Positions 4,542-64,000 of a DNA stretch of 64,000 bases are shown one piece after another. The notes beneath the pieces are model-generated. The model saw nothing but the letters and a program-made list of their open reading frames with translations, was not told the DNA's origin and ran no database searches. Made by a program: the position numbers and the translations under genes. The stretch is taken from assembly GCF_030733845.1 (NCBI RefSeq), contig NZ_CP132311.1, forward strand, positions 1,739,501-1,803,500, given 5' to 3'. The stretch is from Shinella zoogloeoides. Its GTDB lineage: Bacteria; Pseudomonadota; Alphaproteobacteria; Rhizobiales; Rhizobiaceae. Positions within the stretch are counted from its first letter, which is position 1; each line of letters begins with the position of its first letter.

Positions 4542-6152
4542 CTACCCTTTCAGAATGCCGCCCGCGGCGACGACCGCCTCCGGCGTATCGACATCGATAT
4601 GCGCCGCCTGGCCGATCTCCACGTCGACCACATCGAGCCCCGCGCTCTCGACAATATGCCGCGCGCCGACATCGCCTTCTAGATGAAGAATGGCGGCGAA
4701 GGTCGACCGGGGCAGCACGACGGGGTTGCCGCGCTTGCCGCCCGAAACCGCCCGCACGATGGCATGTCCGCCGGCAGCAGCAAAGGCATCAAGCAGCATG
4801 CGCACATCCGCGCCGGTGACATGCGGCATGTCCGCCAGCATCACCACGACGCCGTCGCAGCCCGGCCCAAGCATGGAAACGCCTGCCCGCAGGGACGTCG
4901 ACATGCCCTGCGCGTGATCCGGGTTGCGCACGATATCGATCGCGAGCCCGGCAAGCTCCGCCTCGATCTCCTCCGCCCGGTGCCCCGTCACGACCAGAAC
5001 CCGTGACGGCTTGGCCGCAAGCGCCGCCTCCACGGAGCGGCGGACGAGCGCTTCGCCGTCGAAGGCGGCGAGCAGCTTGTGGCTGCCCTTCATGCGGCTG
5101 GCGCGGCCGGCGGCGAGCACCAAAGCCGCGACGGACAAGGGCCGCTCCGGCGCGCGCAGGTCGCGCGGCTGCGGCCGGCTCGGGATTTCCGCAAGAAGCC
5201 CGCCAACGCCCATGCCCGTTATCTCCTGCGATCCCGGCGTCTCGCCGGCGAAAATGCGGGCAAGAACCCAGTCAAAGCCGTTTTCCTTCGGGCTGCGCGC
5301 GCAGCCAGGCGCACCGAGCACCGGCACCGTCCCGACGCGCGCCAGCACCAGAAGGTTTCCCGGATCGACGGGCATGCCGACATGCTCGACAATACCGCCC
5401 GCGGCGCGGATGGCAGCGGGAATCACATCGTTCGCATCGGTGACGGCCGACGCGCCGAAGACGACGACAAGGTCGTTTTCCCGCACGGCCCGGCGGATGG
5501 CATCCGCAACCTCAGCCGTGCGGTGCGGCACCCGTATCTCGTCCGTCAACCGGCTGCCGGACGGGTGCAGGCGCTGTTCGAAAAGCCGCCGGGTCTTGTC
5601 CATGACGGAAACCTTGAGCGTCGGCAATTGCGAGGCGACGAGGCCGACGCGGTGCGCCGCAAACGGCTTGACCTCCAGCGCCCGGCCCGCCGCCAGCACC
5701 GCCGCCGCCGCGCGCGCCAGCCTTTCGGGCACAGCGAGCGGAATGATCTTGATCGTCGCCACCATGTCGCCGGCCGAAACGCCGGCATGATCCGGCAGGG
5801 TGGCGATGGTGATGGACGAGTCGATGCGATTGAACCGGTCGATGGCCGCACGGTCCGCGATGAAGAGACCGTTCGCCTTGGCATGAAGGTTGATGCGGCC
5901 GGTGGCGGGCGGCGTGAAGGCGAGATGGTCGGGCTCGATGGCCGCCGCGATCAGCGCAGCGGCCTCGTCCTCACCGATATCGCCCTCCTCAAGACGCACC
6001 GCGATCACGGTCGCTACGCCGGCAGCGGCGAGCGCCGTGCGGTCCTCGACAGTCACCACATGCCCCTTGTGCAGCGAAAGCCCCTCCGCCCGCACGCCAT
6101 GCGCCAGCCGCGTGCCGACTGCCTCGGCGACCGGAATTTCCCCGAAGATCAT
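4542..6152 (-). CDS. molybdopterin-binding / molybdenum cofactor cytidylyltransferase fusion
   Basis: A 536-residue two-domain protein. The N-terminal part (about 1-330) resembles the MoeA/MoCF-type molybdopterin-binding domain (VVFGASAVTDANDVIP). The C-terminal part (about 335-536) is a MobA-like nucleotidyltransferase with LVLAAGRASRMKG, GMSTSLRAG and ADMPHVT, the MocA-type pattern for transferring CMP to Mo-molybdopterin. It should make the cytosine-dinucleotide form of the cofactor used by xanthine-dehydrogenase/CO-dehydrogenase-type enzymes. The start ATG overlaps the upstream xdhC stop as ATGA, so translation is coupled. Confidence 0.88.
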   Translation of the reverse strand: MIFGEIPVAEAVGTRLAHGVRAEGLSLHKGHVVTVEDRTALAAAGVATVIAVRLEEGDIGEDEAAALIAAAIEPDHLAFTPPATGRINLHAKANGLFIADRAAIDRFNRIDSSITIATLPDHAGVSAGDMVATIKIIPLAVPERLARAAAAVLAAGRALEVKPFAAHRVGLVASQLPTLKVSVMDKTRRLFEQRLHPSGSRLTDEIRVPHRTAEVADAIRRAVRENDLVVVFGASAVTDANDVIPAAIRAAGGIVEHVGMPVDPGNLLVLARVGTVPVLGAPGCARSPKENGFDWVLARIFAGETPGSQEITGMGVGGLLAEIPSRPQPRDLRAPERPLSVAALVLAAGRASRMKGSHKLLAAFDGEALVRRSVEAALAAKPSRVLVVTGHRAEEIEAELAGLAIDIVRNPDHAQGMSTSLRAGVSMLGPGCDGVVVMLADMPHVTGADVRMLLDAFAAAGGHAIVRAVSGGKRGNPVVLPRSTFAAILHLEGDVGARHIVESAGLDVVDVEIGQAAHIDVDTPEAVVAAGGILKG

Positions 6153-6847
6153 GATGCCGCCCCGCGCAGCGGCCGGCGGCGCAGATGCTCGATGATGTCG
6201 GCCAGGACCGCGACGGCGATCTCCGCCGGGCTTGCGGCGCCGATATCGAGGCCGATGGGCGCCGATATGCTTGCGATCTCCGCTTCGCCATGCCCCATTT
6301 CCTTCAGGCGCTCGACGCGCTTGGCATGGGTCTTCCGGCTGCCGAGCGCACCGACATAGAAACAGCCAGCGGACAATGCCTGCGACAGGGGAAAATCGTC
6401 GATCTTCGGATCGTGCGTCACCGCCACGAGCGCCGTATAGGGATCGAGCGGACGCGTTTTCAAACCGTCCTCCGGCCACTCCGCCACGAGATCGATACCG
6501 GCGAATCGTTCTTCCGTGGCAAACGCCGTGCGCGGATCGATGATGCAGACGTCAAAACCGGCGACCATGGCCATTCGCGCCAGCGCCTGGCTGATATGTA
6601 CCGCGCCGATGACGACGATGCGCGCCGGTGGCAGGTGAACGTTCAGGAAGAATTTCCGGTCTTCCACCTCCACCACGCCGGATTTCCCCGAGCGGAAAGC
6701 ATTCGCGATACTCTCGCCCAACGGCCCGGCAACGGGATCGCCCTCGCAGATCACCCGGTCGCGCCCGTCGCCGAGGTCCGTCAGGTGGATGACGGCGCGG
6801 CGCGCGGCGCGTTCCCTGTTCAGTTTTCGCAGCAGATAAGGATCCAT
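6149..6847 (-). CDS. XdhC-type protein, Rossmann (C-terminal) domain part
   Basis: A 232-residue protein whose main part is the XdhC C-terminal Rossmann domain: VVIGAVHISQALARMA (dinucleotide-binding loop), VTHDPKIDDFPL and YVGALGSRKTHAKR. XdhC/CoxF proteins bind molybdenum cofactor and help its sulfuration and insertion into xanthine-dehydrogenase-family enzymes. Here the two halves of XdhC are separate genes. The partner half ends one base inside this start (TGATG overlap), and the downstream gene overlaps by 4 bases. Confidence 0.9.
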   Translation of the reverse strand: MDPYLLRKLNRERAARRAVIHLTDLGDGRDRVICEGDPVAGPLGESIANAFRSGKSGVVEVEDRKFFLNVHLPPARIVVIGAVHISQALARMAMVAGFDVCIIDPRTAFATEERFAGIDLVAEWPEDGLKTRPLDPYTALVAVTHDPKIDDFPLSQALSAGCFYVGALGSRKTHAKRVERLKEMGHGEAEIASISAPIGLDIGAASPAEIAVAVLADIIEHLRRRPLRGAAS

Positions 6848-31048: not shown

Positions 31049-31978
31049 TCAAGCCCCGAAGACCGACCATCCCGTGCGCGCCGCCAGCATTTCCAGCGCC
31101 AGCGAGCCGATGAGCGAATTGCCGTTCTCGTTGAGGCCCGGCGACCAGACGGCGACCGACGCCTTGCCCGGCGCGACGGCGAGGATGCCGCCGCCGACGC
31201 CGCTCTTGCCCGGCAAGCCGACGCGATAGGCAAAATCGCCCGAACCGTCATAATGGCCGCAGGTCAGCATCAGCGCGTTGATGCGCCGCGCCCGCATATG
31301 GGAGACGACGCGGTGGCCGGTCAGCGGATTGGTGCCGCTATTGGCGAGGAACAGCCCGGCGCGCGCAAGCTGCCGGCAGCTCATCGCCAGCGCGCATTGA
31401 TGAAAGTAGACGCCGAGCACCAGTTCGGCGGCATGATCGAGCTTGCCGAAGGAGCGCAGGAAATTGGCGAGCGCAAAATTGCGAAAGCCCGTCGCCTGCT
31501 CCGAACGCGCCACGGCCTGGTCGACGATGATGTCGTCCTCGTCCGCCAGATAACGCAGGAAGCGCACGATCTCGCCGATCGCCTCCTTCGGCGTGTGGCC
31601 GGCGAGCACGAGGTCCGTGATGGCGATGGCACCGGCATTGATGAAGGGATTGCGCGGGATGCCGCCCTCATATTCGAGCTGAACGATGGAGTTGAAGGCC
31701 GAGCCGGACGGTTCGCGCCCGACACGCTTCCAGATACTCTCGCCATGCTTGCCGAGCGCCAGCGTGAGGGTGAACACCTTGGAAATGCTCTGGATGGAGA
31801 AGGCTTCCTCCGCATCGCCCGCCAGATGGGTCTCGCCATCGACCGTGACGACGGCCATGCCGAATTTCTGCGGGTCCACATGGGCAAGCTGCGGAATATA
31901 GTCGGCCACCTTGCCCTCGCCGCGCCGCGGCGACAGGCTCGCATGGATTTCCTCGACGATGGCCTGCAAGTCCGTCAT
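31049..31978 (-). CDS. glsA: glutaminase
   Basis: A 309-residue serine-dependent glutaminase that turns glutamine into glutamate and ammonia. The nucleophile lies in SISK within [23 protein letters not shown] and [14 protein letters not shown] are family-typical. It ends 31 bases before ttcA begins, so the two may share a transcript. The rpsD terminator lies just upstream. Confidence 0.94.
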
Positions 31979-57313: not shown

Positions 57314-57862
57314 ATGTACCCGCGCACCTCTTTGATCGCCCGCGCCTCCGCAGCGGCCATCCTCGCAGCCACCACCTTCGCCCTTCCGGCCGCGGCCGGT
57401 TCGCGCGACAAGGCCTTCTTCGACCAGGTCGCCGGCAGCTGGCAGGGCAAGGGCGAGATCGTCGCCGGCAAGTACAAGGGCACCAAGTTCAACTGCGACC
57501 TGACGGGCGATTCCGGCCCGGCCAAGGATGCCGGCATCAAGCTCGACGGCTTCTGCCGCGTCGGCGTCTTCAAGCAGCCGATGTCGGCGCTGATCACCCG
57601 GGCGGGCGGCACCTACAAGGGCAAGTTCCTCGACGGCGCGGCCGGCAAGGGCCTCGACATCACCTCCGGCCAGGTCGCCGGCAACAAGGTCGTCGTCGGC
57701 ATCAACCGCCAGAAGCTGAACGGCGCGATGATCGCGCGCCTGGAAAGCGACAACAAGATGAACATCACCATCTCGGTCAAGGTCGAGAACAAGATGGTGC
57801 CGGTCATCGGCCTGTCGCTCGACCGCAACCTCGACGACATCGCCGTCGGCTCGATCAAGTGA
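57314..57862 (+). CDS. secreted protein of unknown function
   Basis: A 182-residue protein with a signal peptide (about 1-28, ...ALPAAAG). The mature part has GSWQGKGEIVAGKYKGTKFNC and two cysteines that could pair. It looks conserved in rhizobia, but I recognise no family. A TTAACCAT half-site for CtrA lies about 70 bases upstream, probably by chance. Confidence 0.7.
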   Translation: MYPRTSLIARASAAAILAATTFALPAAAGSRDKAFFDQVAGSWQGKGEIVAGKYKGTKFNCDLTGDSGPAKDAGIKLDGFCRVGVFKQPMSALITRAGGTYKGKFLDGAAGKGLDITSGQVAGNKVVVGINRQKLNGAMIARLESDNKMNITISVKVENKMVPVIGLSLDRNLDDIAVGSIK

Positions 57863-60716: not shown

Positions 60717-61400
60717 CTATTCTTTCGAAGCGGCCGCGCCTTCGATCTTCTTCTTCAGGCGGGAAGAGGAGGTCGTATATTCGAGCGTCGTGCGCCCGCC
60801 GGGAAACGAAATGCGCCGCACCGCCTGCGTCATCAGCGCCGCCTCGTGGAAGCCGGACAGGATCAGCCGCAGCTTGCCCGGATAGTGGCAGGCATCGCCG
60901 ATGGCGAAGATGCCGGGCTGCGACGTCTCGAAACGTTCGGGATCGACGATGAAGGCATCCTTGCTGCGCTCCAGCAGCCAGCCGGGCGCCGGGCCGGCCT
61001 CCAGCGAGGCCTCGCCTGCCCCCGGCAGGAAGGTTCCAAGCCCTGTCGCGACGACCACGACGCTGGCGCCGATCGCCGTGCCGTCACTAAGATCGACCCG
61101 AAAGCGCCCGTCCGGCTGCTGCGCAAAACCGGTGACGGTCGTCCCGAAGCGGAAGGCCGGGGAAAAGGGTGCGATCTGCTCGAGCAGCCGGCCGGTCAGT
61201 TCCAGCCCGTCGATTTTGGGGAAACCCGGTACGTCGTAGATCGGCTTGTCGGGATAGAGCACGGCGCATTGGCCGCCCGCACGGTCGAGACTGTCGATCA
61301 GCGTGCATTTCAGCCCGTAGAGCCCGAGCTGGAAAACGGAGAACAGCGCGACCGGGCCAGCGCCGACCAGAACCACATCGGTATCGGCGCCGGCGTCCAT
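60717..61400 (-). CDS. TrxR-fold flavoprotein lacking the NAD(P)H domain
   Basis: A 227-residue protein. The FAD-binding parts are clear: VGAGPVALFSVFQLG (12-26), ATG (118-120) and GIFAIGDACHYPGKLRLILSG (163-183), with a C-terminal YTTSSSRLKKK tail as in the ferredoxin-NADP reductase (type 2 TrxR-like) family. Those proteins are about 340 residues. Here the second dinucleotide-binding domain (with the usual GGGDSA motif) is absent, and residues 126-141 form a short linker. AGGATAGCG precedes the ATG. The ferredoxin gene ends 25 bases upstream. It may be a redox partner that takes electrons from ferredoxin only. Confidence 0.75.
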   Translation of the reverse strand: MDAGADTDVVLVGAGPVALFSVFQLGLYGLKCTLIDSLDRAGGQCAVLYPDKPIYDVPGFPKIDGLELTGRLLEQIAPFSPAFRFGTTVTGFAQQPDGRFRVDLSDGTAIGASVVVVATGLGTFLPGAGEASLEAGPAPGWLLERSKDAFIVDPERFETSQPGIFAIGDACHYPGKLRLILSGFHEAALMTQAVRRISFPGGRTTLEYTTSSSRLKKKIEGAAASKE

Positions 61401-61425
61401 CGCGCTATCCTGTTCCGTTTCGATG

Positions 61426-61746
61426 TCAGGCCTGGCGTTCCGGCACGTGGACCACGAGCCCGTCGAGCGCATCCGACATCTTGATCTGACAGGAGAGGCG
61501 CGAGGTGGGGCGGACGTCGTAGGCGAAGTCCAGCATGTCCTCTTCCATCGCTTCCGGCGGGCCGACCGTGGCGCTCCAGGCGTCATCGACATAGACATGA
61601 CAGGTCGCGCAGGCGCAGGCGCCGCCGCACTCCGCCTCGATGCCGGGCACGGAGTTGCGCACGGCATTTTCCATGACCGTGGAGCCGTTGGCGACATCCA
61701 GTTCGTGGCGGGTGCCGTCGAAGGCGACGATGGTGAGTTTGCTCAT
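61426..61746 (-). CDS. [2Fe-2S] ferredoxin, adrenodoxin type
   Basis: A 106-residue ferredoxin with ligands C40, C46, C49 and C86 (CX5CX2CX36C), the ISC/adrenodoxin/putidaredoxin pattern. C44 is an extra Cys. It is the first gene of a two-gene operon with the flavoprotein; the immediate upstream region carries a palindromic repeat. Confidence 0.93.
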
Positions 61747-61760
61747 GATGGCTTCCGGAT

Positions 61761-61866
61761 TCTAGAGCATTTCCAGCCGAAGCGACTTCGCTTCGGCGTC
61801 GATAATGCGGTAAACACAACAATCTAGAGCATTTCCAGTGAGCGGAGTTCACTGGAAATGCTCTAG
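61761..61866. repeat. palindromic repeat cluster before the ferredoxin gene
   Basis: TCTAGAGCATTTCCAG occurs at 61761-61776 and 61823-61838, and its inverted copy ends at 61866. Bases 61824-61866 form an 18-bp perfect stem with a 7-base loop. Between copies lies CCGAAGCGA/TCGCTTCGG. The motif TAGAGCATTTCC is common in rhizobial intergenic regions. Confidence 0.8.
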
Positions 61867-62049
61867 GGCTGCCCGCAGCGGGCGAATGACTGGCCGGCGG
61901 AGGATGGTGGGAGCCGCCGGTTTTCCGGCGGTTGTTTCCAACAAAACCCCTCCCCAGTCAACATCGCGCGCCGGCCGGGGCCTTGCAGGCCCCGGCGCGC
62001 CATCGGCTTTTCCCGCCGCGCCAGTTCCAGAGCGGCCGGGATGCGACGA
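61867..62049. other. GC-rich intergenic region with hairpins
   Basis: No gene seen. Hairpins at 61913-61932 (GCCGCCGG-TTTT-CCGGCGGT) and 61966-62001 (GCGCGCC...GGGGCC / GGCCCC...GGCGCGC). Neither has a strong T-tract, so they are not clear terminators. Confidence 0.5.
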
Positions 62050-62418: not shown

Positions 62419-62949
62419 TTGCCAATATCCTTATATACGCTGCGTACGCTGTTTCGTTGTGATGCACGCAGATGCCGGTCTGGGATTATGCTTCGCGCCC
62501 TCGTTCGCCGGGAACTCGGGGGGCCATCATTCTGCGGGACCGGCGCGCCTATCCGATTAAAAGGAGGCGCAAAGTGGGCATGAATCGCAAACTATGGTTA
62601 ACGGCTGAAAAATAGCCTTTTTCTCAAGTTTTCCATTGCGATACAGAATCGCGCGAAATTAACTTCCTGTTAAGTTTCGGGCGAAGGGAGATGGCAATCA
62701 ATTGTGTGATACAGGCTAATGTGTCACTACGATACGACCGGATAGTCCCGGTGGATAAGCCGTTGGCGGAGATACACCCTTTCGCCTTTTCGGTTTATCG
62801 AGCGAATTTGGAATGAACGGGGGTCCGGACGCTGTTTGCCATGAGGGTATGCAGCAAGACCGGCCACCAACCGGACGGTTCGAATGCGCCTGAGCAGCGG
62901 CAGAGCGTATGAAGCCCGATCCCGGACATGGTAACGAGGCGTAACCGCA
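62419..62949. other. long intergenic region with regulatory sites
   Basis: 531 bases between the Hpt gene and the GPR/RgsE-like gene. No coding frame is convincing. It is AT-richer around 62580-62720 and holds a perfect TTAA-N7-TTAA box and a GGTTAAC half-site near 62607. Confidence 0.6.
62659..62673. promoter_or_regulatory. CtrA-type box
   Basis: TTAACTTCCTGTTAA matches the CtrA consensus TTAA-N7-TTAA exactly. It is 277 bases before the GPR/RgsE-like start and about 240 bases before the Hpt start. Confidence 0.6.
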
Positions 62950-64000
62950 TGGCGACGAACAAGTCCACCGAGTCGATCGACGAAAAGGCCTTCCAGGCCC
63001 TCGAGGAGGCACTCAAGATCGACTTTGACGATCTGGTGCCCGAGACGCCTTCCACGAAGGACGCTTCCGAGGCTCGCTTGTCCGAACCGGCAGGCCGTGC
63101 TGCGAACAAGACGCAGGAAATGCCGGCCAACCAGCCGCTCTCCGGCGAGACCGCACGCACCCTCAACCCGGAACCCGCGCCCAAGACCCCCAGCTTCACC
63201 CCCGCGAACGACGGCTCGCGCAAGACGCCGGCCGCGATCCTCAAGTCGCTGGACATGCGCTCATCCCGCGGCCCGATCCGCATGGCGATCCTCGCCTCCG
63301 TTCTCTGGATAATCGGCGGCCTCGGCGTCGCGAACCTTCTCTACGCCCCGCAGATCTGGCAGATCCGGTCGATCTCCGCCCTCGTCGCCCTGCCCGGCGC
63401 CATCGGCATGCTCGTCGCGATCGTCATGCCGATCATGCTGTTCTTCGCCTTCGCCATCATGATCGCGCGCGCCCATGAACTGCGCAGCGCCGCCCGCTCG
63501 ATGGCCGAGGTCGCCCTGCGCCTTTCCGAGCCGGAAACCGTCGCGACCGACCGCATCATGACCGTCGGCCAGGCTGTGCGCCGCGAAGTCTCGGCCATGA
63601 ACGAAGGCATCGAGCGCACGATCGCCCGCGCGACCGAACTCGAAACCCTCGTGCATTCGGAAGTCAACGCGCTCGAACGCTCCTATTCCGACAATGAGAT
63701 GCGTGTGCGCACGCTCGTGCAGGAGCTCGGCTCCGAGCGCGAGGCGATCGTCAGCCATGCCGAGCGCATCCGCTCCTCCATTTCCGGCGCGCACGAGCAG
63801 CTCAAGGACGAGCTGGTCAGCGCCGGCGACAGCATCACCGCGCGCATCGCGACCTCGGGCGAGGCCTTCGCCTCCATGCTCGACACCCGCGCCGCCATGC
63901 TGATGGAAAAGTCCGACAGCGCGACGCAGACCATCGGCGCCATGCTTTCGGCCCGCACGGATAGCCTGCTGTCGACGCTCAGCTCCTCGGGCGTCGCGCT
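62950..64000 (+). CDS. GPR/RgsE-like polar-growth protein, N-terminal part
   Basis: The gene runs off the window; about 350 residues are visible. A disordered, Pro/Thr-rich N-terminus (about 1-115) is followed by two transmembrane helices (about 117-138 and 147-172), and then a long coiled-coil region rich in Ala/Glu/Arg. This resembles the very large (about 2000-residue) growth pole ring protein of Agrobacterium (GPR) and RgsE of Sinorhizobium, which organise polar wall growth. The assignment rests on layout and context. GAGGCG lies before the ATG. Confidence 0.7.

Follow-up and report, generated by a model that had tools for sequence, protein, structure and literature searches.

A stretch of 64,000 nucleotides of the Shinella zoogloeoides genome, hereafter the window, codes for a flavoprotein that resembles the TrxR-type ferredoxin-NADP reductases (FNRs) and is much shorter than they are. 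What might such a protein do, and where would its electrons come from? We call it mini-FNR, and its ~340-residue relatives full FNRs.

A relative of TrxR-type FNRs devoid of the NADP(H) domain

The initial annotation had described a flavoprotein that keeps both FAD-binding halves and has cleanly lost its second nucleotide-binding domain, estimated at about 110 residues. Alignment with the R. palustris FNR (5ygq, 342 residues) bears this out. Residues 6-127 of mini-FNR align to residues 6-127 of that enzyme and residues 126-219 to residues 247-339, and about 119 FNR residues (115 net) are missing. The reading frame is open from end to end, the join included, as had been claimed. The available part of PMC9137726 places the FAD domain of R. 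palustris FNR at residues 2-122 and 255-344 and its NADP(H) domain at residues 127-250. As these limits match the gap, the part lost from mini-FNR corresponds to the NADP(H) domain.

The FAD segments of mini-FNR harbour the motifs of TrxR-type FNRs, i.e. the glycine-rich GxGxx (here GAGPVA), GGQ and GD, and its C-terminal tail has an aromatic residue, Tyr208. The NADP(H)-binding domain with its GxGxxA and HRR motifs is absent, and no CxxC motif is present anywhere in the protein. Judging from its sequence, mini-FNR is devoid of the usual means of binding NADPH. As there is no NADP(H) domain, 'TrxR-type FNR' is not tenable as a functional name. The labels 'thioredoxin reductase (NADPH)' and 'NAD(P)/FAD-dependent oxidoreductase' are not supported by the domain content of mini-FNR either, which calls for caution in annotation.

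Mini and full forms share 38 conserved positions, including G13/G15, G42G43Q44, D56, G168D169 and H185E186. By alignment, Asp56, Ile180 and Tyr208 of mini-FNR correspond to Asp56, Ile300 and Tyr328 of R. palustris FNR, which are named as FAD contacts in the available text of PMC9137726, Asp56 being reported to contact the flavin ring. Ile180 and the Tyr208 tail are conserved close to the window protein and variable in other branches of mini-FNRs, some of which have no tail. The tail, which covers the flavin in full FNRs, is lost or replaced in the mini rows L141, L145, L053, L240 and L146; its loss in some of the rows is a further step of reduction. A structure prediction of the monomer had been suggested in the initial annotation, and mini-FNR is predicted to fold well (pLDDT 89.8).

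The adrenodoxin-type ferredoxin that had been noted just upstream is indeed encoded there, 25 nt away on the same strand, with the mini-FNR gene downstream. Its closest solved structures are 3hui (Ferredoxin; E 4e-45) and Ferredoxin VI (1e9m; E 6e-36), and best matches with 92-100% identity are found in 21 of 21 Shinella genomes. In addition to the Pfam Fer2 domain, Cys ligands arranged as C-x5-C-x2-C...C, the pattern of the FdVI/adrenodoxin type, can be read from the sequence. Both partners have negative net charges (-4 for mini-FNR and -10 for the ferredoxin), which speaks against simple electrostatic docking.

Table 1. Features of the mini-FNR locus (positions in the window)
Feature	Position	Strand	Basis
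[2Fe-2S] ferredoxin, adrenodoxin/FdVI type, 106 aa	61426..61746	-	Pfam Fer2, E 4e-12
AGGA, likely ribosome-binding site of mini-FNR, 7 nt before ATG	61408..61411	-	Read from sequence
Mini-FNR, single-domain FAD protein, 227 aa	60717..61400	-	ORF and alignment to 5ygq
First FAD-binding segment, residues 1-126: GAGP, GGQC, YPDKPIYD (Asp56)	61023..61400	-	Aligned to 5ygq 6-127; invariant columns
Stretch joining both FAD-binding segments	60981..61022	-	Alignment to 5ygq
Second FAD-binding segment, about residues 141-227: GDACHYPGKLRLIL (Ile180), GFHEAAL, C-terminal tail with Tyr208	60720..60980	-	Aligned to 5ygq up to 339; conserved positions

Other features were observed in the window. A 16-base element, TCTAGAGCATTTCCAG, is present in three copies, one of them inverted, at 61761-61867, just upstream of the ferredoxin gene, and a fourth, weaker copy is found at 31779. 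With up to two mismatches, the element has 4 matches in the window, for 0.02 expected; it presumably resembles a dispersed rhizobial palindrome. Positions 62949-63998 comprise the first part of a gene of great length (its relatives code for about 1000-2100 aa) that lies beside the ferredoxin gene in most relatives, and the first 350 residues of its product have no Pfam match. At 57314-57862 is the gene of a 182-residue protein with a signal-like N-terminus, as judged by eye, and without Pfam match.

Distribution and genomic context of the short form

A search for homologues of the 227-residue form, as had been proposed, showed that the same deletion is common. Among the matches listed, 59 of 120 relatives have 181-237 residues, two of which (181-185 residues) may be fragments, and 105 of the 206 sequences gathered by two protein searches are shorter than 245 residues. 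The short form is present in 6 of 21 Shinella genomes and in 19 of 297 genomes of the family; with another query and cut-off, it was found in 25 of 394 family genomes, representing 10 genera. In nine of these genera there are mini matches without internal stops, and in the tenth, as well as in two genomes of another genus, stops occur only where the match overruns the end of the shorter gene. Across 385 sampled genomes of the class, the window genome alone has a full-cover short match above the full-length ones, among the matches listed. As for plasmids, 42 records match P0001, all with less than 60% identity; among 25 of these matches, those covering at least 80% span ~1 kb in two pieces, like full-length FNR.

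The initial annotation had named a deletion private to this strain and an assembly error as the possibilities that could undo its reading. We give them practically no credence: nothing beyond the odd layout speaks for them, and we rejected both because the short form recurs across genomes and genera. Its occurrence in several related genera suggests a functional electron-transfer protein and not a defective gene. One further candidate, L056 (266 aa, from a gammaproteobacterial metagenome-assembled genome), was rejected as a mini-FNR, as a run of X marks an assembly gap in a longer gene. In the Brucella cytisi record L054, the mini gene near 6001-6651 may be interrupted, with a tblastn match covering residues 1-211 and an open piece of 133 aa. 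Neither record was included in the locus counts below.

The genome of the window has no copy of full FNR, nor has any of the 21 Shinella genomes, and none of the 19 family genomes with mini-FNR has full FNR as well, among the matches listed (E-values to ~1e-37). The 297 family genomes split into 102 with full FNR, 19 with mini-FNR and 176 with neither, the matches being classified as mini at E 2.6e-62 or better and as full-length from 2.1e-60 to 2.5e-52, and some genomes without match being counted from gaps in the genome numbering.

We compared 30 loci with the short form and 15 with the full-length form, some of them possibly from the same species, using tblastn for the counts; custom gene calls missed or shortened the mini gene in two of them (L141 and L149). 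In 14 of the 15 full-length loci, which belong to more distant genera, a full FNR of ~340 residues is encoded directly after the same ferredoxin; L247 is arranged otherwise. The order in the full-length loci is a long gene without Pfam match, Hpt, ferredoxin, FNR, DUF922 on the opposite strand and folP-folB-folK, although several loci lack single markers and the right flank of L245 gave no match. In 26 of the 30 short-form loci, the mini gene lies directly downstream of the ferredoxin gene, and L140 and L145 have extra genes between mini and DUF922. In the 15 Shinella genomes without mini-FNR, DUF922 comes next after ferredoxin, and a tblastn search of this 3.3-kb stretch (E 1e-3) found no trace of the gene. 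One locus therefore occurs in three states, full, mini and absent. The full FNR gene at the same spot in more distant genera indicates that the domain was removed in place. A full gene at this locus, which the initial annotation had expected to find in related strains if the deletion were private, thus does exist in more distant genera and in none of the 21 Shinella genomes, and the deletion itself is common to many genera. Within Shinella, the presence or absence of mini-FNR has changed three times, whether by loss or by gain.

The folP, folB and folK genes follow behind the opposite DUF922 gene in most loci. We rejected a link with folate since these genes accompany full FNR and mini-FNR alike, which makes them a matter of neighbourhood rather than function. 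No acceptor or donor gene is linked to mini-FNR in the loci compared.

In the other 4 of the 30 loci (L147, L148, L235 and L236, from one other genus), the mini gene is directly behind the gene of FprA, a plant-type FNR, and the FprA stop and mini start overlap as TGATG in all four. We named FprA from its Pfam FAD_binding_6 domain and from a match to the NCBIfam ferredoxin--NADP(+) reductase family of 136 bits, which is below the cut-off of 390; its NAD_binding_1 match is just under the cut-off. The ferredoxin locus of the same four genomes has ferredoxin followed by DUF922, without a mini gene. The gntR gene comes directly after FprA in the window genome and in G181 and G294, which belong to the same genus as the four and have no mini-FNR. 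In G181, the genes for an NIR_SIR (sulfite/nitrite) reductase and a DUF934 protein precede FprA; this order is kept in L235, L236, L268 and L270, and not in L147 and L148. A gene that has shifted from a ferredoxin to the other reductase of that ferredoxin would most likely work with that pair.

Thus, mini-FNR is encoded beside ferredoxin or FprA in 30 of 30 loci. This would also suit a non-enzymatic protein that binds ferredoxin or FprA and tunes, stores or protects its partner, with FAD in a structural role. The lack of a linked acceptor gene and the variable flavin-covering tail agree with that explanation, which we nevertheless regard as quite unlikely, because Asp56, the flavin-ring contact according to the available text of PMC9137726, is conserved in both forms, as expected for redox work.

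FprA is absent from none of the 19 family genomes with mini-FNR, from 32 of the 102 with full FNR and from 4 of the 176 with neither (cut-off E 1e-30). Fisher tests on FprA absence gave p 0.003 for full versus mini and p 6e-13 for full versus the rest, values that overstate the evidence as the genomes are related. Full FNR and FprA thus look interchangeable. That mini-FNR was never seen without FprA is as expected if it has lost the NADPH-ferredoxin reductase activity. The four genomes with neither FprA nor any form of FNR are G085 and G169, from the same genus, G199, which is 66% complete, and G256; they may have another ferredoxin reductase.

Selection, decay and number of origins

The dN/dS ratios of mini-FNR range from 0.13 to 0.40 in 14 of 14 pairs, and those of folP from 0.06 to 0.18, as estimated by the simple Nei-Gojobori method, with several pairs near saturation (dS >1). 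Mini-FNR is therefore under purifying selection. It evolves faster than its neighbours, and its branches are longer than those of full FNR.

In a tree of 55 rows, hand-picked from 128 aligned rows, all 32 short rows fall into one supported clade (100/91), which also includes four full-length rows; there are five changes of label. An AU test on these 32 rows rejected a single clade (p 0.0026). With 21 short rows, i.e. 20 fetched genome loci and the window, one of them (L146) being a long branch, a single origin was not rejected (p 0.14). As the test rejects one origin only with the larger set, the case for repeated loss depends chiefly on the metagenome rows P0057, P0061, P0074, P0077 and P0169, and repeated excision is supported only when metagenome sequences are included. 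Among the four full-length rows inside the short clade, the NADPH motifs are eroded in P0060 and P0165 and intact or nearly so in P0148 and P0163. Possibly, then, the ability to bind NADPH can be lost ahead of the domain itself, with P0060 and P0165 as possible intermediates.

Such intermediates also fit a gene on its way out: with NADPH-ferredoxin reduction covered by FprA, FNR would first lose its NADP(H) domain and then vanish, and mini-FNR would be of little function. The three states of the locus, the faster evolution of the mini form, its absence from 15 of 21 Shinella genomes and the possible interruption in Brucella cytisi are all compatible with decay. However, purifying selection in every pair, matches without internal stops in nine of ten genera, the retained FAD motifs and, in four genomes, a place behind FprA in one operon, where stop and start overlap, argue against it, and we consider decay unlikely.

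Putative role of mini-FNR and comparison with known systems

We think it fairly probable that mini-FNR is a TrxR-type FNR that lost its NADP(H) domain by excision in place and has become a single-domain, ferredoxin-dependent FAD protein. The unrelated FNR FprA would take over the NADPH-ferredoxin reduction, and the most likely chain would run from NADPH to FprA, the FdVI-type ferredoxin, the FAD of mini-FNR and an acceptor. We infer the binding of FAD, the reduction of mini-FNR by ferredoxin (or directly by FprA) and onward transfer, as well as the direction of flow and the acceptor. The initial annotation had also suggested a minimal FAD protein fed by ferredoxin; ferredoxin upstream of mini in 26 of 30 loci and FprA in four, the FAD motifs and FprA in 19 of 19 mini genomes lend this indirect support. 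The fast evolution of mini-FNR, its absence from 15 of 21 Shinella genomes, the variability of Ile180 and of the tail with Tyr208, and the low reactivity of full R. palustris FNR toward the [2Fe-2S] ferredoxin RPA3956, as stated in the available text of PMC9137726, count against it. So do the lack of a linked acceptor gene, the negative charge of both partners and the weak match behind the name FprA.

Electrons might also flow in reverse, with another donor, a small molecule or a protein, reducing the FAD, which would then feed the ferredoxin. In R. palustris, the full-length enzyme is believed to operate in the direction of ferredoxin (PMC9137726, available text), and without the domain the flavin may lie exposed. 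No donor gene is linked to mini-FNR, however, and its place behind FprA suggests that its partner is already a source of reduced ferredoxin; this direction of flow thus seems very improbable.

If mini-FNR is indeed a ferredoxin-dependent FAD protein, evolution would have made a ferredoxin enzyme out of an NADPH enzyme through the loss of a domain. More tentatively, and as a possibility rather than an expectation, mini-FNRs might be a new class of flavoenzymes, with a single domain and fed by ferredoxin. TrxR-type FNRs would have lost the NADP(H) domain in frame repeatedly, once the oxidation of NADPH had passed to FprA, and in one genus the short gene would later have been drafted into the operon of FprA and the sulfite/nitrite reductase. 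The presumed working principle of TrxR-type FNRs is a movement of the NADP(H) domain relative to the FAD domain. A family without the NADP(H) domain and with flavin motifs, encoded beside a ferredoxin, would show what the enzyme is capable of without NADPH, and mini-FNR would be a minimal system for electron transfer between flavin and ferredoxin. Because one locus occurs in full, mini and absent states, the route by which the domain was lost can be followed in the sequences.

The initial annotation knew of no described enzyme of this layout. Our literature search, of titles and abstract openings, likewise found no description of a TrxR-type FNR without NADP(H) domain, which a 2021 fold overview may contain; the available parts of PMC10294844 and PMC8945050 have nothing on such a protein. 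That view needs to be qualified in one respect. The closest layout is that of TTHA0370 of Thermus thermophilus (2cvj), a TrxR-related structure that with 180 residues is short enough to lack the second domain. The similarity is remote (Foldseek E 5e-11, TM by target 0.78, 22% identity), and TTHA0370 is not in the best 60 of 534 matches by sequence profile. We know of no link between TTHA0370 and a ferredoxin, and a literature search on it found no functional study; the available text of PMC4859513 mentions it as a structural homologue.

Mini-FNR differs from the TrxR-type FNRs (R. palustris RPA3954, and those of B. subtilis and C. tepidum) in having no NADP(H) domain at all, hence neither GxGxxA nor HRR. 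FprA presumably serves the same ferredoxin as mini-FNR and is its operon partner in four genomes, but it belongs to other domain families. DDOR, a diflavin-linked disulfide oxidoreductase, has two domains. Both DDOR and the NAD(P)H-independent TRi of Desulfovibrio are TrxR relatives without NADPH binding, according to the available parts of PMC9025218 and PMC5627308. DDOR has a CxxC motif, which mini-FNR does not have, and two flavins per subunit, whereas TRi keeps its second domain in the crystal structure. Finally, FFTR is, like the proposed mini-FNR, a ferredoxin-fed TrxR relative that does not use NADPH (PMC9025218, available part). In contrast with mini-FNR, which has neither the second domain nor CxxC, it harbours a redox-active disulfide domain (PMC8469568, available part) with a CxxC motif and reduces thioredoxin. 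Mini-FNR may thus work like an FFTR, ferredoxin-fed and blind to NADPH, without being one.
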